Below, piece after piece: positions 8,707 to 47,914 of a stretch of 64,000 nucleotides of DNA. Numbering within the stretch: the stretch's first letter is position 1; each line of letters opens with the position of its first letter. Position numbers and translations under genes: made by a program. The stretch is from Phreatobacter stygius. Lineage in GTDB: Bacteria; Pseudomonadota; Alphaproteobacteria; Rhizobiales; Phreatobacteraceae. The stretch spans positions 4,415,001-4,479,000 of the forward strand of contig NZ_CP039690.1 in NCBI RefSeq assembly GCF_005144885.1, in the 5' to 3' direction. The notes beneath the pieces are model-generated. The model was not told the origin of the DNA. It saw only the letters and a program-made list of their open reading frames with translations, and searched no databases.

Positions 8707-9569
8707 GGTCTCAACTCCCTGAGGCGTGTGAACGGCCCGAGGGTGATGGTCTCACCCTTCAGGCTGAGGGCGGCATCACGAATGAGCCCTCGCTTGCGGA
8801 ACTGGTCGGCGCGGACACGGCCGGCTTCGAGCGCCAGCCCGATCTCTTGCAGGCTGAGGTCGCCGACGCCGACGGTCACCAGCCTGTCGCCGAGATCGCT
8901 GTCGGGGTCGAGATCGCGTGCCGGCCGGCGCTGGATCGCCGGGTGATCGAGGTCGACGGCATTGGCGATCAGTGTGGCTGCGGCATCGGCGGACGCCGCG
9001 TCGCGGGCGAGCACCGTCACGGAATCGGCGATGCCGAGCGAGAACGAACGCCCTTGCGCGCCCGACGTCGCGATGCCGCCAATGCCGTCGCCGTGCTTGA
9101 GCGTGATGCTGCCGTTCAGCGTGGGAATCGCGCCACGCGAGAAATCGGCGGCGAGCGCCACCTCCATGGTCTCGCTCTCGGTCAGAAAGATCGCGATGTC
9201 GCCGCCGTCATTGACGAAAGCGCGGTCGAGCGGCGCGGCCTCGGTCATGATATCCAGGAGCTCGTCGGCGACCGCGCCGGCCACTGCCGCCATCGGCGTG
9301 ACGAAGGTTCCGGCATGGGGCCGGCAGGCCGCCAGCATGCGTTTGGCCACCGCGGTCTCGACCTGCGGCCGGTCGCTCATCGCCTTGCGCAATTCGGTCA
9401 ATTCGCCGGCAAGCTCCGGCAGGATGGTCTGGAACCGCGCGATCGCCGCCTCATAGGCGTCCTTCACCGCGCTCGATGCGCCCCAGGCCCGGGTCACGAC
9501 ATCGATCGGCCCGTGCTGCAGATGCAGCCGGTCGCCGGTGAGCCATTGCACGGAAGGGCTGTCCCACAT
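8703..9569 (-). CDS. UPF0280 family protein (ApbE superfamily)
   Basis: A 288-residue protein. The segments FVTPMAAVAGAVADELLDIM and AFVNDGGDIAI match UPF0280 (COG2122), uncharacterised relatives of ApbE. ApbE itself attaches FMN covalently to flavoproteins, and its NDGGDI-like region binds FAD and metal. It follows the MarR gene by four bases and overlaps the DUF1185 gene. Because the operon includes an Fe-S reductase that may need a flavin, a flavin-transfer or flavin-handling role is an attractive guess. Nothing in the sequence proves it. There is no lipoprotein signal, unlike many periplasmic ApbE proteins, so it is likely cytoplasmic. Confidence 0.85.
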   Translation of the reverse strand: MWDSPSVQWLTGDRLHLQHGPIDVVTRAWGASSAVKDAYEAAIARFQTILPELAGELTELRKAMSDRPQVETAVAKRMLAACRPHAGTFVTPMAAVAGAVADELLDIMTEAAPLDRAFVNDGGDIAIFLTESETMEVALAADFSRGAIPTLNGSITLKHGDGIGGIATSGAQGRSFSLGIADSVTVLARDAASADAAATLIANAVDLDHPAIQRRPARDLDPDSDLGDRLVTVGVGDLSLQEIGLALEAGRVRADQFRKRGLIRDAALSLKGETITLGPFTRLRELRP

Positions 9570-9573
9570 CGTC

Positions 9574-10041
9574 TCAGCCGAGCTTGGTCAAGAGCCGGAC
9601 CAGGGTCTCGGCCTCGTCGGGGGTGAGCGGCGCCAATGTCTTGTCGGTGACCTCGATGCCCCGTGCCTTCATGGCCTCGACTGTCTCGCGGCCGACATCG
9701 GTCAGCTCGAGCAGCACCAGGCGGGCGTCGTTGGGGTCGACCGAGGGTGTCACCAGGCCACGCTTGGCGAGCCGCCCGGCAACCCCGAACATGGTCGCCG
9801 GATCGATGCCGACGAGCCGCCCGAGCGCGTTCTGCGAGGTGGCGCCGAGATCATGCAGTTTGGCGAGCGCCGCATATTGGACCGGCGTCACCTCGAAACC
9901 CGACATGACCTGATCGAAGATCGCGGTGGCGCGCTGATGCGAGCGCCGGATCAGGAAGCCGATCTGGTCTTCCAGCACATAACCCTTCACCGAGGCCGGA
10001 TCGGTGCCGGGCGAAGTTGCGGCCTGCCTGTTTGCGGTCAT
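9574..10041 (-). CDS. MarR-family transcriptional regulator
   Basis: A 155-residue winged-helix protein. The MarR core is clear: VTPVQYAALAKLHDLGATSQNALGRLVGIDPATMFGVAGRLAKRGLV forms the recognition region and DPNDARLVLLELTDVGRE the wing. The ATG at 10041 overlaps the reductase stop by four bases. A frame open for another 765 bases upstream lies antisense-like over the reductase gene and has no family similarity. As the only regulator inside the heterocycle cluster, it is the best candidate for binding the palindromes at 19381-19400 and 24280-24299. The ligand would presumably be the substrate or an early intermediate. Confidence 0.88.
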   Translation of the reverse strand: MTANRQAATSPGTDPASVKGYVLEDQIGFLIRRSHQRATAIFDQVMSGFEVTPVQYAALAKLHDLGATSQNALGRLVGIDPATMFGVAGRLAKRGLVTPSVDPNDARLVLLELTDVGRETVEAMKARGIEVTDKTLAPLTPDEAETLVRLLTKLG

Positions 10042-11546
10042 GCACGGGCTCCCGGGAAAGGCCAGGGATTGTCGGTGTCCCAGCCGTCGATGCGGGCCTG
10101 CGGCGCCACATCGCGCAGGATGTCGCCGATCGACACGACATCCTCCATATGGCCGCCGAGCTTCTCGTAGAGCGCGCGCGGCAAGGTGAATTCGATCGGT
10201 GCGACGATGGCCGGCGTCGGCACGTAACCGAAGGCGTTCTTCGGCAGCTTGGTGACATCGGCCATGACGGTGATGCCGCCGCCCGGCCAGAGATAGACCG
10301 GTGCGCCGCCCATGGTGACGCGGGTTTCGCCCTTGGCGACCGAGCGGGTCAGCAGAACCGGGTTTTCGGTGACGCCGGCGCGCAGCGAACCGCCGGCGCC
10401 GGCCATGAACAGCACGGTGCAGAGCGACGGCTCGCAATTCTCGCCGATGCGGTCGACCACCCTCATCACCGGCTCCGGGATGGCAGCCGGCACCGGCACC
10501 AGATTGTCGTCCAGCACGCAATAGAGGAAATGCTCGCCGGTGGTCGAGGTCATCAACAGGCGAAGCCCGGGCCAGGCGGTTTCCGGATCGATCTTCTGGA
10601 TGATCGACAGGGGATCCTCGATATCCGTGCCGCCCCAGCCGATGCCCGGATTGGCCACCTGGAAATAGCGGCCGGGCGTCGATTTTCGCCCGCGAACGCG
10701 GATGCCGGCCTGTCTCATGTCGAGCACGCGGCCGGCCTGGTGTTCGGTCAGCACGCCGGTGATGTGGTCGTCGACCACGATCACCTCGTCGACATGGCCG
10801 AGCCATTGCTTGGCGAAGATGCCGACGGTCGCCGACCCGCAGCCGACCCGCATGCGCTGTTCCGGCTTGCCGTCGACGATCGGCGCGGCATTGGCTTCCA
10901 CCACCACCTCATGGCCGCCGTCGATCACCATGGTCACCGGTTCGCCGGCGCAAAGCTTGAGCATGGTGTCGCAGGTGACATTGCCCTCTTTCTTGGAGCC
11001 GCCGGTCAAGTGCCGGACGCCGCCGATGGAGAGCATCTGCGAGCCATATTCGGCGGTCGAGACATGGCCGACCTGCTCGCCATTGACCCGTATCGGCGCC
11101 GCCTCCGGGCCGAGGTGCCGGTCGGTGTCGATCTTCACCTTGACGCCGCAATAGCTGAAAATGCCTTCGGTCACGACGGTGACCGTGTCGACGCCCGCGT
11201 GCTCGGCCGAGACGATGAACGGCGCCGGCTTGTAGTCGGGATAGGTGGTGCCGGAGCCGATGCCGGTGACGAAGGTTCGGTTCGGGTCGAGCGCCTGGCC
11301 GTCCCAGTCGTTGCGGCCGAACTCGACCAGCTTGCCGCCGTCCTCGATCGTCTTGGCGAGCAGCACGACCGGATCGGTGCGGACGAGCTGGCCGTTCTCG
11401 TTGGCGTAGCGCGAGCAGGCGCCGGCGCGGCCCGGACGGATCCGGCAGAGCACCGGGCAGGCATCGCAGCGCAGGATGCCGTCGCCTTCGGCGGCACCGA
11501 ATTTTTTCGAACGGGCTTCCCGCGAGAGCTGGTCGGTGGCGGTCAT
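10038..11546 (-). CDS. 6-hydroxynicotinate reductase-like Fe-S protein
   Basis: A 502-residue protein. Near the N-terminus a Cys cluster CDACPVLCRIRPGRAGAC (Cys27, 30, 34, 44) should bind a 4Fe-4S centre; the remaining 450 residues form one conserved domain. I recognise the family annotated as 6-hydroxynicotinate reductase, which reduces 6-hydroxynicotinate to 1,4,5,6-tetrahydro-6-oxonicotinate using reduced ferredoxin in the fermentative pathway. An adjacent molybdenum hydroxylase fits that route. The start at 11546 has GGGAGG seven bases ahead. The MarR gene overlaps its stop. The true substrate could be another hydroxylated N-heterocycle. Confidence 0.75.
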   Translation of the reverse strand: MTATDQLSREARSKKFGAAEGDGILRCDACPVLCRIRPGRAGACSRYANENGQLVRTDPVVLLAKTIEDGGKLVEFGRNDWDGQALDPNRTFVTGIGSGTTYPDYKPAPFIVSAEHAGVDTVTVVTEGIFSYCGVKVKIDTDRHLGPEAAPIRVNGEQVGHVSTAEYGSQMLSIGGVRHLTGGSKKEGNVTCDTMLKLCAGEPVTMVIDGGHEVVVEANAAPIVDGKPEQRMRVGCGSATVGIFAKQWLGHVDEVIVVDDHITGVLTEHQAGRVLDMRQAGIRVRGRKSTPGRYFQVANPGIGWGGTDIEDPLSIIQKIDPETAWPGLRLLMTSTTGEHFLYCVLDDNLVPVPAAIPEPVMRVVDRIGENCEPSLCTVLFMAGAGGSLRAGVTENPVLLTRSVAKGETRVTMGGAPVYLWPGGGITVMADVTKLPKNAFGYVPTPAIVAPIEFTLPRALYEKLGGHMEDVVSIGDILRDVAPQARIDGWDTDNPWPFPGARA

Positions 11547-11616
11547 CAGGACCTCCCGATGGGTTGGGCGACAACTCTCAATATCGGGTTGCGCGGCCGA
11601 GATGAGTGCGAAATCA

Positions 11617-11665
11617 ACCCTCTCCCATAGGGAGAGGGTGCCCGCGTCAGCGCGCGGGTGAGGGG
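11617..11665 (-). repeat. palindromic intergenic repeat unit A
   Basis: The unit starts with a hairpin whose 10-base arms, ACCCTCTCCC and GGGAGAGGGT, flank ATA (11617-11639). A second GC hairpin follows, CCCGCG with CGCGGG (11641-11658), and then TGAGGGG. Read on the minus strand it has the same order of parts as unit B 85 bp away, so the two units face each other. This resembles REP/BIME or Rhizobium intergenic mosaic elements. It sits between the Mo-hydroxylase and the reductase genes. Confidence 0.75.
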
Positions 11666-11749
11666 ACGTCCATATCCGGATAAATCTGGCCCTGGCCGCA
11701 CTCGACGCGCCTGAAGTGAGAGGCGCCGTGCCTGTTCTACGGGCTTACG

Positions 11750-11798
11750 CCCCTCACCCGGCGCCTGCCGGCGCCACCCTCTCCCTATGGGAGAGGGT
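11750..11798 (+). repeat. palindromic intergenic repeat unit B
   Basis: The order is CCCCTCACCC (11750-11759), hairpin GGCGCC-TGCC-GGCGCC (11760-11775), then a perfect hairpin with arms ACCCTCTCCC and GGGAGAGGGT around TAT (11776-11798). It is the inverted partner of unit A. Together they fill much of the 361-bp gap 11547-11907, in which I see no gene. Paired palindromes of this type can stabilise or terminate transcripts, or bind nucleoid proteins. Confidence 0.75.
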
Positions 11799-11907
11799 CG
11801 GTTCGTTAGCGCCCTTCGCTCGCCCCCTGTTGGAGGAGCACTGCGCTGCGGCCGAGCGCCAACGTCCAAGGACGGGTTGTTCTCAACATGGGTCACCGTC
11901 GAACTCA

Positions 11908-14661
11908 TCATTCCGCGGCCTCCCGCACCTGCAGGGCTTCCCAGAGCTTGTGCGGCAGCACCGGCACCTCGCGCATGCGCACGCCGGTGGCGTGACGGAT
12001 CGCCGAGAGGATGGCCGGGGCGGTGGCGACCAGCGCCGGCTCGCCGACGCCCTTGGCGCCGAACGGACCTTCCGGCTCGGGGTCCTCGATCAGCTTGACC
12101 ACGATGTCGGGCATGTCGCCGGCGGTCGGGATCAGGTAGTCGTGCAGGTTCTCGGTGCGGCCGGGCAGATATTCTTCCATCAGTGCCAGGCCGAGACCCT
12201 GGGCGATGCCGCCATGGACCTGGCCTTCGGTCAGCGTCGGATTGATGGCCCGGCCGACATCATGGGCGGCGACGATGCGGGTCACCTTGACGGTGCCGAG
12301 CACCCGGTCGACCACGACTTCGGCGACCTGGGCGGCGAAGCCGTAAGTTGCATAGGGAATGCCCTGGCCCTTGGCGTCGAGCACGGTGGTCGGCGGGTCG
12401 TACTGGCCTTCGCCCGCCAGCACAATGCCGGTCTCGTCGGCCTCGAGGGTGGCGAGGTCGATCACCCGGCCAGCCTCGCCGTCGGCGACGGTCAGCCTGG
12501 TGCCGTCGAGCTTCAGTTTCGCCTGCGGCCCGGCATTGGCGAGCGCCAGGATCTTGGCGCGCAGGTCGAGGCCGGCGAGCTTGGAGGCATTGCCCGACAC
12601 GAAGGTCTGGCGCGAGGCCGAGGTCTTGCCGGCATCATAGGTCCGGTCGGTGTCGCCGATGACGAAGTCGAAATCGGTGGTCGGCAAACCCAGCGCGTCG
12701 GCGGCGATCTGCAAGAGCACCGTGGTCGAGCCCTGGCCAATGTCGACGGCACCGTTGAGGAAGGTCAGCTTGCCCCCGGCGGTCAGCGTGATGCGCATGC
12801 GCGACGGGTTCGACATCGAGGTATTGCCGCAGCCGTACCACATGCAGGCGACGCCGATACCCCTGGCGATGCGGCCGCCCTTGGCGTTCTCGGCTTCAGC
12901 CGCCGCGACCATGGCGTCATAATCGGCTTTGACCGCGTCGAGGCATTGCGGCAGGCCGGCGGAGGCATGCAGCACCTGGCCGGTCGGTGTCCGGTCGCCA
13001 TGGTCGATGGCGTTGATGCGGCGGATCGCCCAGCGGTCGAGCCCGAGCTGCTCGGCGAGATCGTCGATCAATGTTTCGCCGGCGATCGCCGCCTGGGGCA
13101 CGCCGAAGCCGCGGAAGGCGCCGGCCGGCACCTCGTGGGTGTGCACGGCGCGCGTGGCATTCTTCACATGCGGCACCTTGTAGGGGCCGGTGGCATGGAC
13201 CGGCACGCGGTTCGCCACTGTCGGTCCCCAGGAGGCATAGGCACCGGTGTTGAAGTCCCCGGTCATCTCATAGGCGGTGAAGCGGCCTTGCGTGTCGGCC
13301 GAGGCCTTGGCCCAGATTTTCGATGGGTGGCGCTTGGTGGTCGACGCCATGCTCTCGGTGCGCGAATAGATCACGCGCACCGGCTTGCCGGTAAGCCAGG
13401 CCGCGACGGCGATCAGCGGCTGGATCGATACGTCGAGCTTGCCGCCGAAGCCGCCACCGCAGGCGGTCGGCACGATCCGGACGCTGGCCATCGGCACGCC
13501 GATGACGCGGGCGACCTCTTCCTGGTCCATGACCGCGGCCTGGGTGCAGGCGGTCACCTCGATCCGGTCGCCGACACGCAGGGCGTAACCGGCTTCCGGC
13601 TCGATATAGGCATGTTCGACGAAGCCGGTGCGGAAGTGGCCTTCAGCCGTTGCGGCACCCAGCCGATGGCCTGCTTCGACATCGCCGGTTTCGAGATAGC
13701 CGCGGGTCAGCACATTGTCGGGAATATTGGCGTGCAGGGCCGGCGCGCCTTCGGTCAGTCCGGCCTCGACGCCGATCAGCGCGGCATCGACGGTCCAGGC
13801 GATCGGCAGGGCGGCATCGGCAAGGCCTTCCACCGCCTCGCGCGTGCCGACCAGGGCCAGCACGGCCTCGCCGCGATAGCGCACGAAGCCTGGCGCCAGC
13901 ACCGGCTGGTCCTTGATGGTCGGGAAGATGCCGAAGGAGTTGGCACCGGGAATGTCGGCCGCGGTCAGGATGGCGGCAAGGCCGGGATGGGCCGATTTCA
14001 CCGCCTCGAGATCGCCGAACGTGAAGCGGGCATGGGCATGGGGCGAGCGCACCGCGCGCAGCCACAGGGCATCGGCCGGCGCGCTGTCGGCGCCGAACTT
14101 GTCGGTGCCGGCAACCTTGGCGACGCCGTCGGCGCGGGCGATGCGCGCGCCGACCGCCGCGCCGGCTTCGGCCAGTGGCGCGAGACTGTTGGTACCGCGC
14201 GCCACGTCGGCGATCGCTTCGATGATCTTGACATAGCCGGTGCAGCGGCAGAGCACGCCACCGATGCCGTCCTCGATGTCGCGACGGCTGGGGTTCTGGT
14301 TGCGGCCGAGCAGGTCGGCGGCGGCCATGATCATGCCCGGGGTGCAGATGCCGCATTGGGCCGCGCCATGGGCGAGAAAGGCTGCACGCAGCCGGTCGAC
14401 AACCGGATGCTGCGCCTCGATGGTGGTGATTGCCTTGCCCTCGGCCTGGGCGGTCGAGATGAGGCAGGAGCAGACCTGCTCACCCTCCATCAGCACGGTG
14501 CAGGCGCCACAATCGCCGGCGTCGCAACCGATCTTGGTGCCGGTCAGGCCCATGCGCTCGCGCAGCGTGTCGGCAAGCGAGGCGAACGGCGCCGCCGCCA
14601 CCTGATGGACCGCCCCATTCACATGCAAGGTCAGAGCGATCTCGCTCGGCTTGTCGAGCAT
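11908..14661 (-). CDS. fused 2Fe-2S / molybdopterin hydroxylase (xanthine dehydrogenase family)
   Basis: 917 residues in two parts. Residues 1-160 are the small subunit: a plant-type 2Fe-2S site at Cys46, 51, 54 and 66 and a second at Cys103, 106, 138 and 140. From about 170 onward is the molybdopterin subunit, with CGGGFGGK and, near the C-terminus, GAKGVGEPA holding the catalytic Glu. The separate FAD subunit is encoded directly upstream, and the two genes overlap (TGATG). Such enzymes hydroxylate N-heterocycles with water-derived oxygen. With the reductase downstream, nicotinate or a similar ring is the likely substrate. Fusion of the small and large subunits is less common than separate genes. 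Confidence 0.9.
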   Translation of the reverse strand: MLDKPSEIALTLHVNGAVHQVAAAPFASLADTLRERMGLTGTKIGCDAGDCGACTVLMEGEQVCSCLISTAQAEGKAITTIEAQHPVVDRLRAAFLAHGAAQCGICTPGMIMAAADLLGRNQNPSRRDIEDGIGGVLCRCTGYVKIIEAIADVARGTNSLAPLAEAGAAVGARIARADGVAKVAGTDKFGADSAPADALWLRAVRSPHAHARFTFGDLEAVKSAHPGLAAILTAADIPGANSFGIFPTIKDQPVLAPGFVRYRGEAVLALVGTREAVEGLADAALPIAWTVDAALIGVEAGLTEGAPALHANIPDNVLTRGYLETGDVEAGHRLGAATAEGHFRTGFVEHAYIEPEAGYALRVGDRIEVTACTQAAVMDQEEVARVIGVPMASVRIVPTACGGGFGGKLDVSIQPLIAVAAWLTGKPVRVIYSRTESMASTTKRHPSKIWAKASADTQGRFTAYEMTGDFNTGAYASWGPTVANRVPVHATGPYKVPHVKNATRAVHTHEVPAGAFRGFGVPQAAIAGETLIDDLAEQLGLDRWAIRRINAIDHGDRTPTGQVLHASAGLPQCLDAVKADYDAMVAAAEAENAKGGRIARGIGVACMWYGCGNTSMSNPSRMRITLTAGGKLTFLNGAVDIGQGSTTVLLQIAADALGLPTTDFDFVIGDTDRTYDAGKTSASRQTFVSGNASKLAGLDLRAKILALANAGPQAKLKLDGTRLTVADGEAGRVIDLATLEADETGIVLAGEGQYDPPTTVLDAKGQGIPYATYGFAAQVAEVVVDRVLGTVKVTRIVAAHDVGRAINPTLTEGQVHGGIAQGLGLALMEEYLPGRTENLHDYLIPTAGDMPDIVVKLIEDPEPEGPFGAKGVGEPALVATAPAILSAIRHATGVRMREVPVLPHKLWEALQVREAAE

Positions 14662-15527
14662 CAGGCGGCCCTCCGAAGGCTGTCTGCGGCAAGGTCGGAC
14701 AGGCAGTCGCGCACCAGGGCGAGCGCGGCCGCGCGGCGATACGCGCCGGTGGCGCGGACATCGTCGATCGGGGTCAGCCCATCGAGATGGTGGGGCGTGA
14801 CCAGCGATGCCGCCGCCGCGAGCGGCACACCCGCAAGCGTGGCTTCGAGGGCCGTCAGCCGCGCCGCCACCGCCGAGCAGGCGCCGACCGCGATCCGCGC
14901 CTCACTGATCCCGCCGGCCATGTCGACCGCGACGACGCCGGAGACCATGGCGATCGAAATGACCAGGTATTTGCGCGCGCCGAGCTTCTTGAAACAGGAG
15001 CGCGCATTGGCGAGCTTCGGGATGGTCAGCGCGGTGACGATCTCGTCGGCCCGCATCGCAGTGTGCCGATAGCCGTCGATGAACTGGCCGAGCGCCAGGC
15101 TGCGGCTGCCCGCGACGCTCGACAGCTCGACCTGCGCATCGAGCGCCAACAGGTTCGGGATGCCGTCGCCGGCCGGCGAAGCCGTGACGATATTGCCGGT
15201 GAGCGTGCCCAGATTCTGCACCTGCACGCCGCCGACCTCGCGCGCGGCCTGCCGATAGGCATCGAACAATGACGGCAGATCGGCGCGGATGAGATCGGTC
15301 CAGGTGGTCAGGCAGCCGAACCGCCAGTGGCTGCCCTCATCGGTGATGCCGCGCAGGCCGGGAATGGCGGTGAGGTCGAGCACGTCCTTGTGGGTCGGGT
15401 CGCCCCAGGCGCGCCTTGCGGTGCGCACCGGGTAGATGTCGGTGCCGCCGGCCAGGACGACGACGTCGTGGGCGGCGCGGATATTGAGCGCCTCGGCCAG
15501 TGTCGGGGGGCGGTGATAGCAGACCAT
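14661..15527 (-). CDS. FAD-binding subunit of molybdenum hydroxylase (CoxM-like)
   Basis: With the ATG at 15527 the product has 288 residues. I prefer this start because it forms a TGATG overlap with the HyuB stop and has GGAGG five bases ahead; an ATG at 15539 adds four residues. The N-terminal YHRPPTLAEAL and VVLAGGTDIYP are the FAD pyrophosphate-binding signature of the CO dehydrogenase flavoprotein family. QVQNLGTLTGNIVTASPAGD is the second FAD motif. It passes electrons from the Mo/Fe-S subunit encoded immediately downstream to an acceptor. The genes overlap at both ends, so this is a tightly coupled operon. Confidence 0.9.
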   Translation of the reverse strand: MVCYHRPPTLAEALNIRAAHDVVVLAGGTDIYPVRTARRAWGDPTHKDVLDLTAIPGLRGITDEGSHWRFGCLTTWTDLIRADLPSLFDAYRQAAREVGGVQVQNLGTLTGNIVTASPAGDGIPNLLALDAQVELSSVAGSRSLALGQFIDGYRHTAMRADEIVTALTIPKLANARSCFKKLGARKYLVISIAMVSGVVAVDMAGGISEARIAVGACSAVAARLTALEATLAGVPLAAAASLVTPHHLDGLTPIDDVRATGAYRRAAALALVRDCLSDLAADSLRRAA

Positions 15528-17242
15528 CAGGCCCTCCATCCCCAGAGTTTGGCGGCCTGGTCTGCGGTGTAATAGCCGCGCCCCACGTCGCGGGCGACGA
15601 GCGCCGGGTCGCGTTTCGCCGGATCGCCATAACCGCCGCCGCCTGGCGTCATCACCTCGACGCGGTCGCCGGCGCGGATCGCGATATCCTGGTCCTTGGA
15701 CAGGTGCTCGGGGATCGTGGTCGTGCCGTCACGGTGGATCCTGACGACATTGGGCGCGCCGTCGCCGCCACCCAGCACGCCTGGCGGGCCGAAGCGGCCG
15801 TGATCCATGACGAAGGAGGCGCGCGCCTCGCCGCGCAGCAATTCCATCTCATAGTGCACGCCGAAACCGCCGCGTTTCTCGCCGGCGCCGCCCGACCCTT
15901 CGCGCAGGGCGAAACGGCGGAACAGCACCGGGTAATATTGCTCCATCACCTCGATCGGCGCGGTCTTGGAAATGCCGATGGTCGAGCAGCCATTGGTCAG
16001 GCCGTCTTGCGTCGCGTTGCCGCCATAGCCACCGCCGGTGATCTTGTACATGACGTAGCTCGCCTGCTTGACGGGATCGAAGCCGCCGAGCGCGAAATTG
16101 CCGGAGGTGCCGGCCGGCGCCGCGGTCACCTTGTCGGGGATGGCCTGGACCAGGGCCAGGAACACCGCTTCCGCGATCCGTTGCGACACTTCCGCGGCGC
16201 AGCCCGAGACCGGGCGCGGATAGAGCGCATCGAGGAAGGTGCCGACGGGGCGCTTGATGGTCAGCGGTTCGAACGCGCCGGCATTGATCGGTACGTCGGG
16301 GAAGATGTGTTTCACGCCGAGATAGACCGCCGAATAGGTGGTCGCCACCACCGAGTTCATTGGCCCCTTGCAGGGCGGTGACGAGCCGGTGAAATCGAAA
16401 TCCAGGCTCTCGCCCTGCTTGGTCACGGTGAGCGCGATCTTCAGCGGCTCGTTCACCACTCCGTCGGAATCGACGAAGGCCTCGGAACGATAGACGCCGT
16501 CGGGGATCTGGCGGATTTCGGCGCACATGCGTTCGGCCGAACGCGCCCGGATCGCCTTGATCGCGACGTCGAGCGTTGCCGCGCCATATTTGGTCACCAG
16601 GTCCATCAGCCGGGTTTCGCCAACCAGCAGGGCGGCGGCCTGGGCCTTGATGTCGCCGATGCGCTGCTCGGCGATGCGGATGTTGGACGAGATGATCGCG
16701 AAGATCTCCTGGTCCATCTCACCTTTCTTGAACAGCTTGACCGGCGGCAGGCGCAGGCCCTCCTGCTCGACCTCGGTGGCCTTGGCCGAAAAGCCGCCCG
16801 GCACCATGCCGCCGATATCGGGCCAATGGCCGGTATTCTGCAGCCAGCAGAACAGGGCGCCATCGACGAAAACCGGCTTGGCGAAGCGCACGTCCATCAG
16901 ATGGGTGCCGCCGAGATAGGGGTCGTTGACGATATAGATATCGCCCGGTTCCGGCTTGCCGGCCTTGCCCTCGCGGATCAGCCGGATGATCTCCCCGGTC
17001 GAATATTGCATCGTGCCGACGAATACCGGCAGGCCGAATTCGCCCTGACTGATCAGGGCGCCGGTGTCGCGGTCATAGATGCCGTCGGCGCGGTCGTCGG
17101 CCTCGGCGATGACCGGCGAGAAGGCGGAGCGCGAGAAGGCGATGTCCATCTCGTTGCAGACCTGCTGCAGGCCGGCCTGGATCACCGCCAGCGTCAGCGC
17201 GTCAATGGCTTTTGCCTCTGTCGGCAGGCTCTGGAGGGTCAT
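15527..17242 (-). CDS. hyuB: hydantoinase/oxoprolinase subunit B family protein
   Basis: 571 residues matching the hydantoinase B/oxoprolinase family. Typical segments are the N-terminal LQQVCNEMDIAFSRSAFSPVIAEADDRADGIYD, the DIYIVNDPYLGGTHLMDV motif, and the Gly-rich C-terminus with GGGGYGDPAKRDP. Together with HyuA (ATP-dependent) it would hydrolyse a cyclic amide bond such as in hydantoins, 5-oxoproline or a lactam. Here it lies between HyuA and the flavin subunit of the Mo hydroxylase. A lactam made by the reductase pathway is therefore the obvious candidate. The HyuA gene ends 52 bp upstream. Confidence 0.9.
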   Translation of the reverse strand: MTLQSLPTEAKAIDALTLAVIQAGLQQVCNEMDIAFSRSAFSPVIAEADDRADGIYDRDTGALISQGEFGLPVFVGTMQYSTGEIIRLIREGKAGKPEPGDIYIVNDPYLGGTHLMDVRFAKPVFVDGALFCWLQNTGHWPDIGGMVPGGFSAKATEVEQEGLRLPPVKLFKKGEMDQEIFAIISSNIRIAEQRIGDIKAQAAALLVGETRLMDLVTKYGAATLDVAIKAIRARSAERMCAEIRQIPDGVYRSEAFVDSDGVVNEPLKIALTVTKQGESLDFDFTGSSPPCKGPMNSVVATTYSAVYLGVKHIFPDVPINAGAFEPLTIKRPVGTFLDALYPRPVSGCAAEVSQRIAEAVFLALVQAIPDKVTAAPAGTSGNFALGGFDPVKQASYVMYKITGGGYGGNATQDGLTNGCSTIGISKTAPIEVMEQYYPVLFRRFALREGSGGAGEKRGGFGVHYEMELLRGEARASFVMDHGRFGPPGVLGGGDGAPNVVRIHRDGTTTIPEHLSKDQDIAIRAGDRVEVMTPGGGGYGDPAKRDPALVARDVGRGYYTADQAAKLWGWRA

Positions 17243-17294: not shown

Positions 17295-19346
17295 TCATAC
17301 CTTCACCCTCAGATTGCCGATGGGATCGACGGTCGCGACCGCGCCCGGCTCGATCACGGTGGTGGCGTCGATCTGCTGGACGACCGCCGGGCCTTCGATC
17401 CGGGCGCCGACCGGCAGCTTGTCGCGGGCATAAACCTTGGCCTTGTGCCAGCCGCCGTCGGCATGAAGGTCGCGCGTGCCGATCACCGCTGCGTCGACGT
17501 TTGCCACCCGTGCCGCCGGGTCGAGCAGAGCCGAGAGCGGGAAGGATTTGCGCCGGCCGATGACGCTGGTGACAAGGTTGACCAGCACCGCCCTGATCTC
17601 CGGCAGACGCACCTGGAAGCGGTGGAAATAGGCCTTCTCGAAAGCCGCCTGGATCTCCTCGCGCGTCACGTCGGCACCCGGCAGCGCGACCCGGATGAGA
17701 TGGGTCTGGCCGCGGAACTGCATGTCGGCGCCGTGCAGGATGACGGTCTCCTCGATCTCGGCCTTCTCCTCCTCGACCACGGCGAGTGCGCTGCCGCGCT
17801 GGGTGGCGATCAGCCGCTGCACCTCGGCCATGTCGGCCTGGTCGAGCGGGGTGTTGACCGTATTGACCCGGTCCTGGCGGAGATCGGCGACCAGGCAGCC
17901 GAGCGCATTGGTCAGGCCGGGCCTGGCCGGCACCAGCACCTCGGGGATACCCAGTTCGCGGGCGAGCGCGACGGCGTGCAAGGGGCCGGCGCCGCCGAAG
18001 GCGAACAGCACGAAATCGCGCGGGTCGTAACCGCGCGACAGCGACACCATGCGGATGGCACCGGTCATGTGGACATTGCCGAGCCGGATGACCGCGGCGG
18101 CGGCCTCCTCGATGCCCATGCCGAGCGGCTTGGCCAGGTCGCGCTCGAACGCGGCGCGGATCTCGGCAAGCGACACTTTCGACTGCACGGCGGTCAGCCG
18201 TTCCGGATCGAGCCGGCCGAGCACCAGATTGGCATCGGTGATGGTCGGTCGGGTGCCGCCGCGGCCATAACCGATCGGGCCGGGTTCGGAGCCGGCCGAA
18301 TGCGGACCAACCTGCAGCATGCCGGCCTTGTTGACGCTGGCGATCGAGCCGCCACCGGCGCCGACGGTGCGGACATCGACCATCGGCAAGTGGATCGGCA
18401 GGCCGTAATCGATGGTCAGCTCGGCCGAGACCTCGGGCACGCCGCCATGGATCAGCGCGACATCGGTGGAGGTGCCGCCCATGTCATAGGTGATGGCATT
18501 GGCGAGACCCGACTGGGCGAGCGTCGCCGCCGCGGCCATCACGCCCGAGGCTGGACCCGACATGACCGTCTTGGCGGCCTCGCGCGCAACGATGCTGGCC
18601 GGGACTGTGCCGCCATTGCCGTTCATCACAAGCAGGTCGTGCTTGAAGCCCTTGGCGCTCAGGTCGTTCTGCAGCCGCTGGACGTAGCGGTCGAGGATCG
18701 GCTGCACCGCGGCATTCACGCTGGCCGTGGTGCCGCGCTCATATTCGCGGAACTCGGACAGCAGCTGATGGCCAAGCGTGACATAACCGTTTGGCCAGAT
18801 CCCGGCGGCGATCTCACCGGCGCGCAGCTCATGGGCCGGATTGGCATAGGCATGCAGGAAATGGATGACCAGCGCCTCGCAGCCTTCGGCGAGAAGCGTG
18901 CGTATTTCGCGCGCGACGGCCGCCTCGTCGAGCGGCGTGACAACCTCACCTTGGGCATTCAGCCGCTCCGGCACCTCCCGGCGCCATTGGCGCGGGATCA
19001 GCGGCTCGAAGCTGCCGGTCATGCCATAGGCGCTCGGCCGGGTGCGCCGGCCAAGCTCCAGCACGTCACGGAAGCCTTGCGTCGTGATCAGTCCGACCTT
19101 GGCGACCTTGCGCTCGAGCACCGCATTGGTGGTGGCGGTGGTGCCGTGAATGATCAGGTCGAGATCGGCCGGGCTCACGCCGGCCGCCTCGATCGCCTTG
19201 ACCACGCCGACCGCCTGGTTGGCGGCGCTGGTCGGAACCTTGGCGAGTTTGACGCGCACGCCAGCGCCATCCGCCTCGGTCAGGAGGAGGTCGGTAAAGG
19301 TGCCACCCACGTCGATGCCGGCTACGCGCCTCAAGGTCTTCTCCAC
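17295..19346 (-). CDS. hyuA: hydantoinase/oxoprolinase subunit A (ATP-dependent)
   Basis: With the GTG at 19346 the product is about 683 residues. It opens with RRVAGIDVGGTFTDLLL, the phosphate-binding loop of this ASKHA-fold ATPase family. Later hallmarks are HGTTATTNAVLERKVAKVG, DMGGTSTDVALI and FGGAGPLHAVALA. It couples ATP hydrolysis to opening of a cyclic amide together with HyuB. The frame is open up to 19436, but that leader is unconserved and would contain the palindrome 19381-19400, so I favour 19346. The start region has only a weak ribosome site. LivF ends 86 bp upstream. Confidence 0.88.
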   Translation of the reverse strand: MEKTLRRVAGIDVGGTFTDLLLTEADGAGVRVKLAKVPTSAANQAVGVVKAIEAAGVSPADLDLIIHGTTATTNAVLERKVAKVGLITTQGFRDVLELGRRTRPSAYGMTGSFEPLIPRQWRREVPERLNAQGEVVTPLDEAAVAREIRTLLAEGCEALVIHFLHAYANPAHELRAGEIAAGIWPNGYVTLGHQLLSEFREYERGTTASVNAAVQPILDRYVQRLQNDLSAKGFKHDLLVMNGNGGTVPASIVAREAAKTVMSGPASGVMAAAATLAQSGLANAITYDMGGTSTDVALIHGGVPEVSAELTIDYGLPIHLPMVDVRTVGAGGGSIASVNKAGMLQVGPHSAGSEPGPIGYGRGGTRPTITDANLVLGRLDPERLTAVQSKVSLAEIRAAFERDLAKPLGMGIEEAAAAVIRLGNVHMTGAIRMVSLSRGYDPRDFVLFAFGGAGPLHAVALARELGIPEVLVPARPGLTNALGCLVADLRQDRVNTVNTPLDQADMAEVQRLIATQRGSALAVVEEEKAEIEETVILHGADMQFRGQTHLIRVALPGADVTREEIQAAFEKAYFHRFQVRLPEIRAVLVNLVTSVIGRRKSFPLSALLDPAARVANVDAAVIGTRDLHADGGWHKAKVYARDKLPVGARIEGPAVVQQIDATTVIEPGAVATVDPIGNLRVKV

Positions 19347-19380
19347 ATCGCTCGTCCGATCGTCATGGACGACCCCGCAA

Positions 19381-19400
19381 ATCATTCGCCTACGAACGGT
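19381..19400 (-). promoter_or_regulatory. 20-bp palindromic operator upstream of hyuA
   Basis: The plus strand reads ATCATTCGCCTACGAACGGT, two half sites related to RYCRTTCG separated by four bases. It lies 35-54 bases upstream of the preferred hyuA start. The same palindrome is found upstream of the Liv binding-protein gene and of fpr. No good -35/-10 pair aligns with this copy, unlike the other two. Confidence 0.6.
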
Positions 19401-19432
19401 TGCGGCATGCCAGTGCCGCGCCCACCCGGCCG

Positions 19433-20170
19433 TCACATGCTCAAATAGGCTTCCCGGATCTGGTCATTGGCTTCGAGATCCGCTGTCGTCCCCTCGTAGC
19501 GGATCGCGCCTTTTTCGATGACATAGGCGCGGTCCGAGACGGCGGAGGCGAAATAGAGGTTCTGTTCGGAGAGCAGCACGGCGATGCCCTCGGCCTTCAT
19601 GGCGAGCACCGCATCGGCCATTTGCTCGACGATGACGGGAGCCAGGCCTTCGGACGGCTCATCCAGCAGCACCGCGTGGGGATTGCCCATCAAGGTGCGG
19701 GCAATGGTCAGCATCTGCTGTTCGCCGCCCGACATGGCCGAGGCCCGGCGGCCCTTCATCTCGGCGAGGTTCGGGAAGATCGAGAACAGCCTGTCGGTGG
19801 TCCAGGGCTTGGTGTCGCCCTGGCGCTCGCTGGCCGCCGCTTTCCGCCCGACCTCGAGGTTCTCGTAGACCGTCAGGTCGGTGAAGATGCGCCGTTCCTC
19901 CGGCACGTAACCGAGGCCGAGCCGGGCGATCCGGAACGGGTTCATCCGGCTGATCTCCTGGCCCTCGAAAGTGACCGTGCCGCCGCGCGGCGGCACCAGT
20001 CCCATGATCGCCTTGAGCGTGGTCGACTTGCCGGCGCCGTTGCGGCCCATCAGCGCGACCACTTCGCCGGCATGCAGCGCCAGATCGACGCCGAACAGCA
20101 CCTGGGCATGGCCATAGGCGGCCGACAGGCCCTTGGTGTCGAGAATGATGACGGGGGCTGGCGCGCGCAT
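19433..20170 (-). CDS. livF: branched-chain amino acid-type ABC transporter ATPase LivF
   Basis: 245 residues with Walker A GRNGAGKST, the LSGG-type signature AMSGGEQQMLTIARTLM and Walker B HAVLLDEPSEGL, followed by the LSEQNLYFA switch region characteristic of LivF. It powers a LIV-type importer at the inner membrane together with LivG, the fused permease and the binding protein. Its ATG overlaps the LivG stop (TGATG). LIV-type systems carry amino acids but also aromatic and heterocyclic acids, amides and urea. Given the cluster, a heterocyclic acid is more likely here. Confidence 0.92.
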   Translation of the reverse strand: MRAPAPVIILDTKGLSAAYGHAQVLFGVDLALHAGEVVALMGRNGAGKSTTLKAIMGLVPPRGGTVTFEGQEISRMNPFRIARLGLGYVPEERRIFTDLTVYENLEVGRKAAASERQGDTKPWTTDRLFSIFPNLAEMKGRRASAMSGGEQQMLTIARTLMGNPHAVLLDEPSEGLAPVIVEQMADAVLAMKAEGIAVLLSEQNLYFASAVSDRAYVIEKGAIRYEGTTADLEANDQIREAYLSM

Positions 20171-20988
20171 CAGATCGCTCCAGCCTGGTTTTCGCGCGAT
20201 GGGTTCTCGCCGGCCTTGGCCTTGCGGGCGCGCAGCGCCGCCTGCACGCCGTGCTCGCCGAGATAGACCTGCTTGACGCGGGCATTGCCGCGCACCTCGT
20301 CGGGCGTGCCGGAGGCAATGATCTCACCGCGCACCAGCACCAGGATGCGGTCGGAATGGGCGAACACCGAATCCATGTCATGCTCGGTGAACAGCACGCC
20401 GATCTTGTGCGTGCGGGCGATCTCGGCGGTCAGTTCCATCAGCGCGGTGCGTTCCCTCGGCGCCATGCCGGCGGTCGGTTCGTCCATCAGGAGCAGTTTC
20501 GGGTCGGAGGCGAGCGCGATGGCGAGTTCGACCCGCTTGACGTCGCCATAAGCGAGCTCGTTGACCGGCTTGTCGGCGACATCGGCCATGCCGACGCGGT
20601 CGAGGAAGGAGCGGGCCGCCTCGCGGTGCAGGCCGGCGGTGCGCGGCACCACCGCGCGGGTCTGGCCATGGGACGAGATCAGCGCCATCTGGACGTTTTC
20701 GACCACGCTCATCGACACGAAGGTCTGGGCGATCTGGAAGGTGCGGCCGACGCCCTTGCGCCAGACCAGGCGCGGCGGCAGGCCGGTGATGTCCTCGCCG
20801 GCGAGCCGGACGCTGCCCTTGTCCGGTTTCAGCTGGCCGCCGACCATGTTGAAGGTGGTCGACTTGCCGGCGCCGTTCGGCCCGATAATGGCGAGCAGTT
20901 CGCCGGCCTGAAGCGAGAAGGACACGTCCTTCGCCGCGCGCACGCCACCGAAATGTTTCTGCAGGTTCTCGACGACCAGCAAGCTCAT
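20170..20988 (-). CDS. livG: branched-chain amino acid-type ABC transporter ATPase LivG
   Basis: 272 residues beginning MSLLVVENLQKHFGG. It has Walker A GPNGAGKST, the typical LivG insertion with GVGRTFQIAQTF, the degenerate signature ELAYGDVKRVELAIAL, Walker B LLLMDEPTAGM and the FTEHDMDSVF switch. The ATG at 20988 overlaps the permease stop by four bases (ATGA). An open frame extends further upstream in the same phase, but it runs over the permease gene and has no family similarity. The basic tail (RARKAKAGENPSREN) is longer than usual. Confidence 0.92.
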   Translation of the reverse strand: MSLLVVENLQKHFGGVRAAKDVSFSLQAGELLAIIGPNGAGKSTTFNMVGGQLKPDKGSVRLAGEDITGLPPRLVWRKGVGRTFQIAQTFVSMSVVENVQMALISSHGQTRAVVPRTAGLHREAARSFLDRVGMADVADKPVNELAYGDVKRVELAIALASDPKLLLMDEPTAGMAPRERTALMELTAEIARTHKIGVLFTEHDMDSVFAHSDRILVLVRGEIIASGTPDEVRGNARVKQVYLGEHGVQAALRARKAKAGENPSRENQAGAI

Positions 20989-22859
20989 GTCGCCTCCTTC
21001 GGCGCGAAGCGCGCCTTCAGGCCTTCCGCTGCGCCAACCAGGCCACGCGGGAACAAGAGCACCATGGTGATGATCGAGAGGCCGAGGAAGAACCGCCAGA
21101 AGTCGGTGAGCGGCATGAAGAAGTCTTTGATCGAGTGGAAGAAGGCCGCCCCGACCAGCGGGCCCATGACGGTCTGGATGCCGCCGGTGAGGATCATCAC
21201 CAGGAAGTCGATCGACATGGCGATCGAGATCATGGTCGGGTCGATGGTGCCCTTGGAAAAGGCGTAGAGGCCGCCGGCGAGCCCGGCCGCGGCGCCAGCC
21301 AGGGTGAAGCCGAGCCAGCGATGGGTGCGCACGTCGATGCCGATGGCATCGGCCCGGATCGCCGAGTCGCGCGCCGCGCGCAGCGTATAACCGAAGGGTG
21401 CGTAGATGACGTGACGGAGCGCCGCGATGGCGACAAGCGAGAGCACCGCCACCACGTAGAAATAGACCTGCCGGGAGCTTGCCCAGGCCGAGGGCCAGAC
21501 GCCGACCACGCCATTGTCGCCGCCGGTCACCTCGACCCATTGGAAGCAGACCGCATAGGTGATCTGGGCGAAGGCGAGCGTCAGCATGGCGAGATAGATG
21601 CCCGAGAGACGGACCACGAAATAGCCGAACAGCGCCGCCGCCAGGCCGCCGGCGACAGGAGCGGCGATCAGGGCCGCCTCCATCGGCAGCTTCAACGGGC
21701 CGGTGACCAGGAGCCCGGCTGCATAGGCACCGACGCCGAAATAGGCGGCGTGGCCGAAGGAGACGATGCCGCCATTGCCGATCAGGAAGTTGAGCGAGAA
21801 GGCGGCGAGCGCGAAGACCATGATCTCGATGCCGACCTTGATCTTGTAGTTGTCGCCGATGAACGGGATGGCCAGCAGCGCGATGACCGCGAGCGCGACA
21901 ATCACCAACTCGACCTTGGCGAAACGCTTCAGGTTCAGGATGCCCTCGGGCAGCACGGCGCGATTGGCCACCGCATCCGGCTTGCCGAGCAGGCCCCAGG
22001 GTTTCACCACCAGCACGGCGGCCATCAGCAGGAACACCAGGACCAGCGTGATCTTCGGGAAGATCAGGATGCCGAAGGCTTGCAACAGGCCAATGATCAG
22101 GGCGGCGATGAAGGCGCCCGGCACCGAGCCCATGCCACCGATGACGGTCACGACGAAGGCTTCGGTGATGATCGAAAGGTCCATATGCGAGCTGGCGGGA
22201 ATGCGCGGGATCTGCAGTGCGCCGCCAAGCCCTGCCAGGAAGGCGCCGAGGAACAGCGTGCCGGTGAACAGCATGGCCTGGTTGACGCCGAGCGCACCGA
22301 GCATTTCGCGGTCCTGGGTGGCGGCCCGGATCAGGATGCCGAAGCGGGTTTTCTGCATGATCAGGGTGAGCAGGCCGAGCACCACCGGCCCGACGAAGAT
22401 CAGGAACAGCTCATAGGCCGGGAAGCGCTGGCCCATGATCTCGACGCCATGGCGCAGGCCCGGCGCGCGCGGCCCCGGCAGATCGACCGGCCCCCAGATC
22501 TTGAGCACGATGTCCTGGACGATCAGCACGACACCGAACGTGGCGAGCAGCTGGAACAGTTCCGGCACCTTGTAGATGCGCCGGAGCAGCAGCATCTCCA
22601 TCACCACGCCGAGGAGGCCGACGACGGTCGCCGAGATCAGCACGCCGACAAAGAACAGCGTCGGCGAGCGGTCGAAGTCGAGCAGCCAGGGCACGATCGT
22701 CACCGCCAGGTAGGCACCCAGCATGTAGAGCGAGCCGTGGGCGAAGTTCACGATGCGCGTCACGCCGAAGACGATCGTCAGCCCCGACGCGATCACGAAC
22801 AGCGCGGAGGCGCTGGCAAGACCGGACAAGGCCTGGATGACGATGAAGGAGAGGTCCAT
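20985..22859 (-). CDS. fused LivH-LivM ABC transporter permease
   Basis: 624 residues from the ATG at 22859. Residues 1-290 match LivH, with the opening LSGLASASALFVIASGLTIVFGVTRIVNFAHGSLYMLGAYLA. After a cytoplasmic linker, residues 310-624 match LivM, including FGHAAYFGVGAYAAGLL and the GENGV-like GGDNGVVGVW. Normally these are two genes; here one chain would form both halves of the channel, probably with 16 or more membrane helices. The longer reading to 22922 adds an unconserved Arg-rich leader. It sits between the binding-protein gene and LivG. Confidence 0.9.
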   Translation of the reverse strand: MDLSFIVIQALSGLASASALFVIASGLTIVFGVTRIVNFAHGSLYMLGAYLAVTIVPWLLDFDRSPTLFFVGVLISATVVGLLGVVMEMLLLRRIYKVPELFQLLATFGVVLIVQDIVLKIWGPVDLPGPRAPGLRHGVEIMGQRFPAYELFLIFVGPVVLGLLTLIMQKTRFGILIRAATQDREMLGALGVNQAMLFTGTLFLGAFLAGLGGALQIPRIPASSHMDLSIITEAFVVTVIGGMGSVPGAFIAALIIGLLQAFGILIFPKITLVLVFLLMAAVLVVKPWGLLGKPDAVANRAVLPEGILNLKRFAKVELVIVALAVIALLAIPFIGDNYKIKVGIEIMVFALAAFSLNFLIGNGGIVSFGHAAYFGVGAYAAGLLVTGPLKLPMEAALIAAPVAGGLAAALFGYFVVRLSGIYLAMLTLAFAQITYAVCFQWVEVTGGDNGVVGVWPSAWASSRQVYFYVVAVLSLVAIAALRHVIYAPFGYTLRAARDSAIRADAIGIDVRTHRWLGFTLAGAAAGLAGGLYAFSKGTIDPTMISIAMSIDFLVMILTGGIQTVMGPLVGAAFFHSIKDFFMPLTDFWRFFLGLSIITMVLLFPRGLVGAAEGLKARFAPKEAT

Positions 22860-22968
22860 GGTTGAAGCGTTCTCAAGACAAAGTTCGAGCGGGGACCGCC
22901 GAAAACGGCGATCCGTGCGCATGGCTTGATGCCCGGGCGAGACAAACCCGGGCCGCTGAATGGATCGA

Positions 22969-24195
22969 TCAGACCCGGCGCGCGGCGCGCACCTCGGCCT
23001 CGGGGAACATATGATTGGCGCCGTCCTCGTAGCGCCAGTTCTTCATCGTGCCGAGCTTGCCCTTGAGCGTGGTCTCGCCAACCCAGGCGCCGAGCGTCGA
23101 CTGCTGGTCGATCTCGCGCATGACAACCGGTCCGGCCACCGTGTCGCTCTTCAGGCCCTTGAGTGCGGCGATCAGCGCCTCGGTCTCGGTCGACTTGGCC
23201 TTGTTGAACAGGTCGCGGATCATGTAGCCGACGACATAACCGAGCAGCGAGCCGAGCCGGGGCGTGTCGTTGAAGCGGGCGCGATAGGCCTCGACAAAGG
23301 CCTTGTGGCCGTTGGTCTCGATCTGCTCCCAGGGGTAGCCGGTGGTGATCCAGCCTTCCGGGGTCTCCTCGCCGAGCGGCAGGATATATTCCGGTTCGCC
23401 GGTGAGCAGGCTGACCACGGTGCGGCCCTCGAACAGGCCGCGCGTATTGCCCTCGCGCACGAAGGCCGGCAGGTCGGCACCGAACAGCACGTTGAAGATG
23501 CCGTCGGGCTTGGTCTGCAGGAGCGCGCCGACGGTGGCGCCGGCGTCGACGCGGCCGAGTGCCGGGAACTGTTCGCCGACCACTTCGAAGCCGGGCACGG
23601 CGGCGCCCATCAGCTTCTTGAAATTGGCCGCCGCCGACTGGCCGTATTCATAGTTCGGCGCGACGATGGCCCAGCGCTTGATGCCTTTGCCCTTGGCGGC
23701 GTCGACCAGCATCTTGGTCTGCATATAGGTGTTGGCGCGAACCCGGAAGGTGAAGCGGTTGCCGCTGCCCATGGTCAGGGTGTCGGTCAAGGGTTCGGTC
23801 GCGAGATAGAGCACCTTGCGCTGATTGGCGAAATCGGCGAGCGCCAGGCCGACATTCGACAGGAAGGCGCCGGCGATGAACGAGACGTTCTCGCGGGTGA
23901 CCAGTTCCTCGGCGACCCGCACGGCATCACCCGGCGTCGAGCCATCGTCGCGGAACACGATTTCCAGCGGCCGGCCGCCGAGGCCGGCAAGGCCGCCGGC
24001 GCGGTTGATCTCGTCCTGGGCGAGCTGCATGGCATTGCGATAGGGCACGGCGAAGGCGGCCATGCGGCTGTAGGAATTCAGCTCGCCGACACGCACCGGC
24101 GCGCCCTGCGCGGCGCCAGGCCCGGTGGTCATCGCAACACCGGTCGCGGCCAGTCCGCCGACGACCGTGCGACGGGACAGGTTCAGCTTGGTCAT
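22969..24195 (-). CDS. LIV-type ABC transporter substrate-binding protein
   Basis: 408 residues. The N-terminus MTKLNLSRRTVVGGLAATGV carries an SRR-x-V motif followed by a hydrophobic stretch ending near AAQG, so export by the Tat pathway is likely. The mature part is a periplasmic type I binding fold (VRVGELNSYSRMAAFAVPYRNAMQLAQDEINRAGG, then GGRPLEIVFRDDGSTPGDAV). The ATG at 24195 has GGGGAG ahead; a longer reading to 24330 would contain the promoter. It is the first gene of the transport and catabolic block and has its own promoter with an operator over the -10. The ligand is unknown. Confidence 0.9.
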   Translation of the reverse strand: MTKLNLSRRTVVGGLAATGVAMTTGPGAAQGAPVRVGELNSYSRMAAFAVPYRNAMQLAQDEINRAGGLAGLGGRPLEIVFRDDGSTPGDAVRVAEELVTRENVSFIAGAFLSNVGLALADFANQRKVLYLATEPLTDTLTMGSGNRFTFRVRANTYMQTKMLVDAAKGKGIKRWAIVAPNYEYGQSAAANFKKLMGAAVPGFEVVGEQFPALGRVDAGATVGALLQTKPDGIFNVLFGADLPAFVREGNTRGLFEGRTVVSLLTGEPEYILPLGEETPEGWITTGYPWEQIETNGHKAFVEAYRARFNDTPRLGSLLGYVVGYMIRDLFNKAKSTETEALIAALKGLKSDTVAGPVVMREIDQQSTLGAWVGETTLKGKLGTMKNWRYEDGANHMFPEAEVRAARRV

Positions 24196-24279: not shown

Positions 24280-24322
24280 ATCATTCGTAAGCGAACGATA
24301 CCGCGTCCATTGCGGCTGACAA
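24280..24322 (-). promoter_or_regulatory. promoter with overlapping palindromic operator (Liv block)
   Basis: On the coding strand TTGTCA (24322-24317) is followed after 16 bases by TATCGT (24300-24295). The palindrome ATCGTTCGCTTACGAATGAT (24299-24280) begins at the second base of the -10 box. The predicted start point is therefore inside the operator, an arrangement expected for repression. The fpr promoter has the same geometry. Start codon 24195 lies about 85 bases downstream of the palindrome. Confidence 0.72.
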
Positions 24323-25887: not shown

Positions 25888-26367
25888 ATGTCGTCTCAAT
25901 CATCGCCACTCGACGCCTATGACAAGTCCATCATGCGCGAGATTCAGCGCGATTCCAGTCCGTCGATCGAGACGCTGGCCGAGCGCGTGCATCTGTCACG
26001 CAATGCCTGTTGGCGCCGGCTGAAGAGGCTGGAGGAGGAGGGCTTCATCAAGGCGCGGGTGGCGCTGGCCGATCCGGTCAAGCTCAACCTCGAACTCACC
26101 GTGTTCATCGCGGTGCGCACCAGCCGTCACGAGGCGGACTGGGCCGAACGCTTCCACGCGGCCGTCCAGGACATTCCCGAGCTGGTCGGCGCCTACCGCA
26201 CGGCCGGCGAGATCGACTACATCCTGCACGCCCGCGTGCCCAATGTCGCGGCCTATGACCGGCTCTACAAGAAGCTCACCGCCCGTATCGAAATGCAGGA
26301 TGTCTCGGCGAGCTTCGTCATGGAGGAGATCAAGGAGGTCACGGCGCTGCCGCTGGACTTCATCTGA
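25888..26367 (+). CDS. Lrp/AsnC-family transcriptional regulator
   Basis: 159 residues. The N-terminal helix-turn-helix reads IMREIQRDSSPSIETLAERVHLSRNACWRRLKRLEEEGFI. The C-terminal RAM domain includes the ligand-binding region PELVGAYRTAGEIDYILH and the closing LPL. These proteins form dimers to octamers and respond to amino acids. It is divergent from the DUF6356 gene and convergent with the hydrolase gene, 2 bp apart. The target is unknown; the neighbouring asparaginase is a plausible candidate because of proximity. Confidence 0.92.
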   Translation: MSSQSSPLDAYDKSIMREIQRDSSPSIETLAERVHLSRNACWRRLKRLEEEGFIKARVALADPVKLNLELTVFIAVRTSRHEADWAERFHAAVQDIPELVGAYRTAGEIDYILHARVPNVAAYDRLYKKLTARIEMQDVSASFVMEEIKEVTALPLDFI

Positions 26368-47871: not shown

Positions 47872-47914
47872 TTGTCATAAAAGCGCGATGCGGTATCATT
47901 CGTGTACGAATGAC
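47872..47914 (+). promoter_or_regulatory. fpr promoter with overlapping palindromic operator
   Basis: TTGTCA (47872-47877), 16 bases, TATCAT (47894-47899). The palindrome ATCATTCGTGTACGAATGAC (47895-47914) starts at the second base of the -10. The -35 hexamer, spacing, the -10 bar one base and the operator offset are the same as at 24280-24322. The fpr start codon lies 37 bases downstream of the palindrome. Confidence 0.75.

Follow-up and report, generated by a model that had tools for sequence, protein, structure and literature searches.

Three palindromes as probable operators of one MarR-family repressor in a reductive nicotinate-type gene cluster of Phreatobacter stygius

Three related palindromes in a 64,000-nucleotide stretch of the Phreatobacter stygius chromosome (contig NZ_CP039690.1, the window in the following) are, judged from sequence and comparison, very probably operators of a single MarR-family repressor. 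This protein, encoded at 9574-10041, would locally control a reductive nicotinate-type regulon that includes fpr, the gene for a predicted ferredoxin-NADP reductase.

Palindromes and promoters in the window and in the genus

Operator 1 (ATCATTCGTAAGCGAACGAT, 24280-24299, minus strand) lies on the livK side and operator 2 (ATCATTCGTGTACGAATGAC, 47895-47914, plus strand) on the fpr side, each covering the -10 element of a promoter. The third palindrome (ATCATTCGCCTACGAACGGT, 19381-19400, minus strand) is situated between livF and hyuA. All three coordinates given in the first-pass annotation were confirmed. The livK promoter (24295-24322, minus strand) consists of TTGTCA (24322-24317), a 16 nt spacer and TATCGT (24300-24295), the fpr promoter (47872-47899, plus strand) of TTGTCA (47872-47877), the same spacer length and TATCAT (47894-47899); both are predicted from sequence consensus only. 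The pattern TTGTCA-N16-TATC[AG]T is thus matched exactly at both places, and in both the 20-bp palindrome begins with base 2 of the -10 hexamer. The common promoter-operator architecture that had been proposed therefore holds for livK and fpr in hexamers, spacing and offset, but not for the hyuA copy, since by reading no -35 or -10 element is visible at this position in the window or in the genus sequences.

The consensus RYCRTTCG-N4-CGAAYGRY has three zero-mismatch sites in the 7,354,671-bp chromosome, all of them in the window and spanning 28.5 kb, and the reversed pattern, which served as control, has none. From the base composition about 0.12 motif matches and 0.003 matches of the composite promoter-operator are expected per genome, which bears out the earlier view that the resemblance is unlikely to be due to chance; hundreds of sites scattered within genes were not found. 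When one mismatch is allowed genome-wide, eight further sites appear, and the total of 11 is at chance level (17 for the reversed control). With a matrix derived from the genus these eight sites score 0.2-11.6 compared with 27.5-31.6 for the three exact ones. Likewise, allowing three mismatches within the window yields 17 matches against 15.8 expected, again the chance level.

Conservation was examined in the 12 genomes of the family, which represent one genus, Phreatobacter. Every one of them contains at least one exact consensus match. The 21 forward matches are located at livK (12), hyuA (4), fpr (2) and elsewhere (3), compared with four matches of the reversed control, one in each of four genomes. 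If deviations from the strict pattern are allowed in the orthologous upstream regions, the site is present at livK in 12/12, at fpr in 12/12 and at hyuA in 11/11 genomes, one genome (G004) being left out of the last count because its contig ends in livF. Conservation at orthologous promoters, named beforehand as a check, is accordingly found across the genus. The fpr gene itself is present in all 12 genomes; it lies near the cluster on the contig of livK in about 9-10 of them and on another contig in two fragmented assemblies, G004 and G007, and in G011. By reading, the hyuA site ends at most about 20 bases from the gene start in 8 of 11 genus sequences.

The three exact genus sites outside the cluster were inspected and left out of the regulon. 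Two of them (L024 and L021, both 1501-1520) are near-identical palindromes (ATC[AG]TTCGTTCGCGAACGAT) with a centre unlike the operator core, preceding a short reverse-strand frame that by reading resembles a DUF1127 protein. The third (L023, 1501-1520), an exact match to the consensus, lies just past the 3' end of a frame resembling MoaA (molybdenum cofactor synthesis) and is probably a chance occurrence.

Gene content, probable substrate and ligand

Downstream of operator 1 the genes are all on the minus strand. A livK-type binding protein (22969-24195) comes first, followed by the liv permease (20985-22922, BPD_transp_2 in two matched stretches) and the ATPases livG (20170-21540) and livF (19433-20170). 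The frame of livG is open to 21540, but its true start is probably near 20985 because the ATPase domain begins near 20931. Next are hyuA (hydantoinase A/oxoprolinase, 17295-19340, with an inferred TTG start at 19340; scanned as 17295-19436) and hyuB (hydantoinase B/oxoprolinase, 15527-17242), whose best NCBIfam match, caprolactamase beta, is under the cut-off. Pfam matches identify the FAD subunit (14661-15539) and the large subunit (11908-14661) of a molybdenum hydroxylase, the latter of the xanthine-dehydrogenase type with a fused 2Fe-2S part. Every NCBIfam match of the large subunit is under its cut-off, and we propose that the enzyme is a nicotinate hydroxylase. The gene hnr (10038-11546) belongs to the 6-hydroxynicotinate reductase family: its product had no match in the Pfam scan and is 60-82% identical, at a coverage of at least 80%, to 26 plasmid loci, 17 of which are annotated as 6-hydroxynicotinate reductase. 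The series continues with the marR gene (9574-10041), a UPF0280 (PRK04334) protein (8703-9569, NCBIfam 1.4e-113), also a neighbour in annotated Hnr plasmids, and a protein of the amino acid synthesis family AA_synth (8125-8706, Pfam PF06684, 1.4e-68). On the plus strand fpr (47951-48724) follows operator 2. Its product has FAD- and NAD-binding Pfam domains, the best NCBIfam match being PRK10926 (1.2e-46, 159 bits, under the cut-off of 390), and the sole other fpr match in the genome is weak (28% identity, 1e-9).

The genes for Hnr and for the hydroxylase large subunit are separated by about 360 bp (11547-11907); this spacer contains a low-complexity frame and lacks conservation across most of the genus. 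The small open reading frame in this place (11546-11911) was rejected as a gene, being of low complexity, lacking a Pfam match and being seen within the genus only in G006 (60%). Directly downstream of the AA_synth gene a 207-residue frame (7436-8059, minus strand) matches BrnT_toxin (residues 9-72) and a helix-turn-helix (residues 145-191).

Molybdenum hydroxylase and transporter genes adjoin hnr, the arrangement by which an Hnr cluster is recognised. In six of seven plasmid Hnr regions that were opened a MarR of the same clade is present (annotated in five, found by tblastn in Methylobacterium), and a ferredoxin-NADP reductase is annotated near hnr in four of the seven. In Neorhizobium the region that contains fpr, liv, marR, hnr and hyuAB also has annotated nicA and nicB genes next to them. 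According to the accessible part of PMC3511419, nicotinate is degraded via 1,4,5,6-tetrahydro-6-oxonicotinate (THON), and a cluster marked by an Hnr homologue (42% identity to the Eubacterium barkeri enzyme) is assigned to this route in a strain which degrades nicotinate and 6-chloronicotinate. The THON clusters of Azorhizobium, Bradyrhizobium and SG-6C likewise combine Hnr and an ABC transporter in a conserved cluster; the same part of the text names no regulator, operator or Fpr, and the window cluster adds HyuAB, the operator and a putatively co-regulated fpr. In its predicted gene content the window cluster is a match to these reductive nicotinate clusters of other bacteria and unlike a generic amino-acid block. 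Nicotinate or a close relative is the most likely substrate, and not a branched-chain amino acid or hydantoin.

The best PDB sequence match of the window MarR is 2NNN, a 'probable transcriptional regulator' (8.8e-29), and the second and third are structures of the MarR-family protein BpsR (6PCP and 6PCO, 1.8e-20 and 2.9e-20). BpsR of Bordetella represses the nic genes and is relieved by 6-hydroxynicotinic acid, a ligand that it contacts through Tyr15 (6-hydroxy group), Arg26 (carboxylate), His23 and His32 (PMC6837509, accessible part). It differs from the window MarR in that it controls a maleamate-type nicotinate pathway. Among 16 aligned MarRs of the clade the equivalents of Tyr15 and Arg26 are kept in all, that of His23 in one and that of His32 in seven. 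At the four contact positions the window MarR has Tyr, Phe, Arg and Ala, both histidines thus being replaced. This pattern fits a related carboxylated pyridine as ligand without proving it. NicR of Pseudomonas putida is also a MarR-like repressor of nicotinate genes and, by the same partial source, is without the ligand residues of BpsR; the likeness to NicR is one of description only.

The same MarR and operators could also serve another N-heterocycle, such as a substituted pyridine, a pyrimidine or a lactam. Neither the molybdenum hydroxylase nor HyuB is above a curated equivalog cut-off, two of the four BpsR ligand contacts are replaced, and the Hnr function is assigned here by homology alone. 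Nevertheless, we consider such a substrate unlikely, since an Hnr homologue marks the cluster of the nicotinate-degrading strain in the accessible part of PMC3511419, nicA and nicB are annotated beside the Neorhizobium cluster, and the Tyr and Arg contacts are invariant.

The putative operator at Hnr loci outside the genus and its pairing with a MarR clade

Outside the genus 84 Hnr loci were scored, i.e., the best 80 of 595 matches plus seven plasmid loci, minus three loci of the genus itself. A matrix built only from 35 genus sites gave 57 matches scoring at least 15 in 43 of these 84 listed loci, compared with a mean of 1.95 and a maximum of 13 matches for 100 position-permuted matrices. A second matrix was built from 42 sites of the same 84 loci scoring at least 17, leaving out the hits in L126, L131 and L149, which were judged false. 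At a threshold of at least 18 it detected 76 matches (75 non-overlapping) in 46 of the 84 loci; 200 permuted versions gave a mean of 1.4 and a maximum of 24, reached by one matrix. The site class was also found in other families, orders and classes. The cross-species consensus is roughly ATYRTTYGTRYACRAAYRAT, with T5, G8, C13 and A16 invariant among the 42 training sites.

Of the 76 second-matrix matches at the 84 listed loci, 71 are followed by a mapped cluster gene within 300 bp. These genes, with divergent sites counted twice, are those for the FAD subunit (28), hnr (12), livK (11), hyuA (10), marR (8), fpr (8) and the large subunit (1). Nine fpr genes occur at these loci, and seven have a site at most 300 bp upstream; the two others are those of L071 and L132. 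L071 (10115-10870), a betaproteobacterial plasmid, shares the Hnr gene set and also has fpr, but a TetR-type gene takes the place of MarR and there is no operator. Four loci from Methylobacterium, on one plasmid and in three genomes, have 12 bases between the end of the hyuA site and the matched start. At L135 (6422), L137 (6467), L141 (6396) and L153 (3095) the operator runs right up to the ATG of the gene for the hydroxylase FAD subunit, which suggests very short or leaderless transcripts.

Of 78 site-gene rows, 43 have the triplet TTG at a distance of 23-28 bp ahead of the site, compared with 4-14 in eight other six-base bins; TTGAC is present there in 28 rows, compared with 0-4 in the other bins. 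The layout of livK and fpr, in which the site covers the -10 element, is therefore general. An operator over the -10 element is the usual layout for blocking transcription, not for activating it. We inferred the direction of control only from this layout, and MarR could instead be an activator, or the palindromes could be targets of a global regulator. Both ideas appear improbable, as the site overlaps the -10 element with a TTGAC-type -35 element 23-28 bp upstream in many species, and as a global regulator would have to make do with just three exact sites in 7.35 Mb, all in the cluster region.

Which regulator recognises the site was approached through co-occurrence. The window MarR, scanned as a longer frame (9574-10806), matches the Pfam MarR family (1.9e-10, 40.9 bits, cut-off 24.6) and is the top clade match of its own genome with 200.9 bits compared with 97.7 for the next. 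A clade MarR is encoded within 39 of the 84 listed Hnr loci, and the site (second matrix) is found in 36 of these 39 compared with 10 of the 45 others. Among the records of the latter, 44 genomes and one plasmid (L071), 21 have a member of the clade (E<=1e-40), and these include all 10 with a site. At the genome level the site is thus present in 46 of 60 listed loci with the MarR and in 0 of 24 without it, kinship being ignored and L071 among the 24 being a plasmid, not a whole genome. With no training exclusions the count, likewise ignoring kinship, becomes 46/60 and 1/24, because L131, from a genome without the MarR, then scores as a site of at least 18; with the genus-only matrix at a threshold of at least 15 it is 41/60 and 2/24, kinship again ignored. 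The 14 loci from MarR-bearing genomes without a site include several short contigs, and six exceed 17 kb.

For 17 of the 21 MarR genes outside the fetched Hnr stretches the surroundings were examined. Seven have a site upstream, two of these being MarR-fpr pairs (L166 and L172). Three have a site only on the 3' side, in one case preceding a hydroxylase FAD gene, and seven have no site in the stretch. The first-pass annotation had suggested one repressor and had named the MarR at 9574-10041 as a candidate. The conservation in the genus, the tracking of the palindrome with one MarR clade and the rank of this protein as the best clade member of its genome strongly support both proposals, as far as sequence comparison can tell. 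A GntR-type regulator, considered because of the GT-N2-AC core, was dropped since it is the MarR clade that co-occurs with the site.

A regulator of the Lrp/AsnC type (25888-26367) would also be well placed to bind the sites: it is encoded closer to livK than the MarR, adjoins an asparaginase gene and livK, and lies beside the cluster in 12/12 genus genomes. Yet tblastn (E<=1e-6) found a relative in none of the 87 listed Hnr loci, and 46 of the 84 loci outside the genus carry a site of at least 18. The lack of a relative in the listed Hnr loci rules the AsnC protein out as a general partner of this operator; it was rejected as regulator, and we give very little credence to its binding the sites. 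That the resemblance arose by chance or by recent duplication of a promoter segment, as the several bases shared around the -10 elements of livK and fpr might suggest, is practically negligible given about 0.12 sites expected per genome and is contradicted by the fact that each site is kept at its gene throughout the genus and that the site class recurs in further families, orders and classes.

The BpsR-type operator was also considered as the same element and rejected. Of 182 records matched, four plasmid loci that have BpsR-like MarRs next to maleamate-type nicotinate genes were examined; they lack the operator, their best scores being 9.8-12.4 and so below 15. The only hint of kinship to the BpsR-type operator is the 12.4 site, found at L154 (7515) between two pathway genes.

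Proposed mechanism and significance

The sites, their conservation, the pairing with the MarR clade and the gene content come from sequence and comparison, and from them we infer the following for DNA binding and repression, the extent of the operon, the inducer, the electron route and the order of the enzymes. Without inducer, a MarR dimer bound to the palindrome would cover the -10 element and the start region at both livK and fpr and block RNA polymerase. The livK promoter would drive livK, the other liv genes, hyuAB, the molybdenum hydroxylase genes, hnr, marR and the UPF0280 and AA_synth genes. As marR is situated inside this putative operon, the repressor would control its own gene too. 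MarR would be released by a compound of the pathway, the most likely candidate being 6-hydroxynicotinate or something closely related to it. The operator at hyuA is probably an internal roadblock or a second contact.

The Hnr of Eubacterium barkeri takes electrons from ferredoxin. In P. stygius Fpr would pass electrons from NADPH via ferredoxin to Hnr, and this supply would be the reason for the presence of fpr in the regulon. Hnr would reduce the pyridine ring, and HyuAB would then open the resulting lactam.

MarR repressors of catabolic operons, including those for nicotinate, are already known. The accessible part of the regulon survey PMC5343134 contains no such nicotinate/MarR regulon, and a search of open-licence literature, in which most subscription journals are missing, found no account of the operator, the role of the MarR clade or the place of fpr in a nicotinate regulon. 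On balance we favour, by a narrow measure, the broader view that a widespread and hitherto unnamed MarR regulon ties Fpr to a nicotinate repressor, so that the NADPH-to-ferredoxin supply would rise in an aerobe together with a ferredoxin-type ring-reducing enzyme that was originally found in an anaerobe, with the hyuA operator as a second, roadblock-like control point.

The resemblance of two promoters 24 kb apart thereby leads to a regulon that can be tested, for which a regulator, an operator and a probable substrate class are named. Fpr is a likely physiological partner of 6-hydroxynicotinate reductase in aerobic bacteria, and the operator and the MarR clade may be used together to annotate Hnr clusters across the Proteobacteria.
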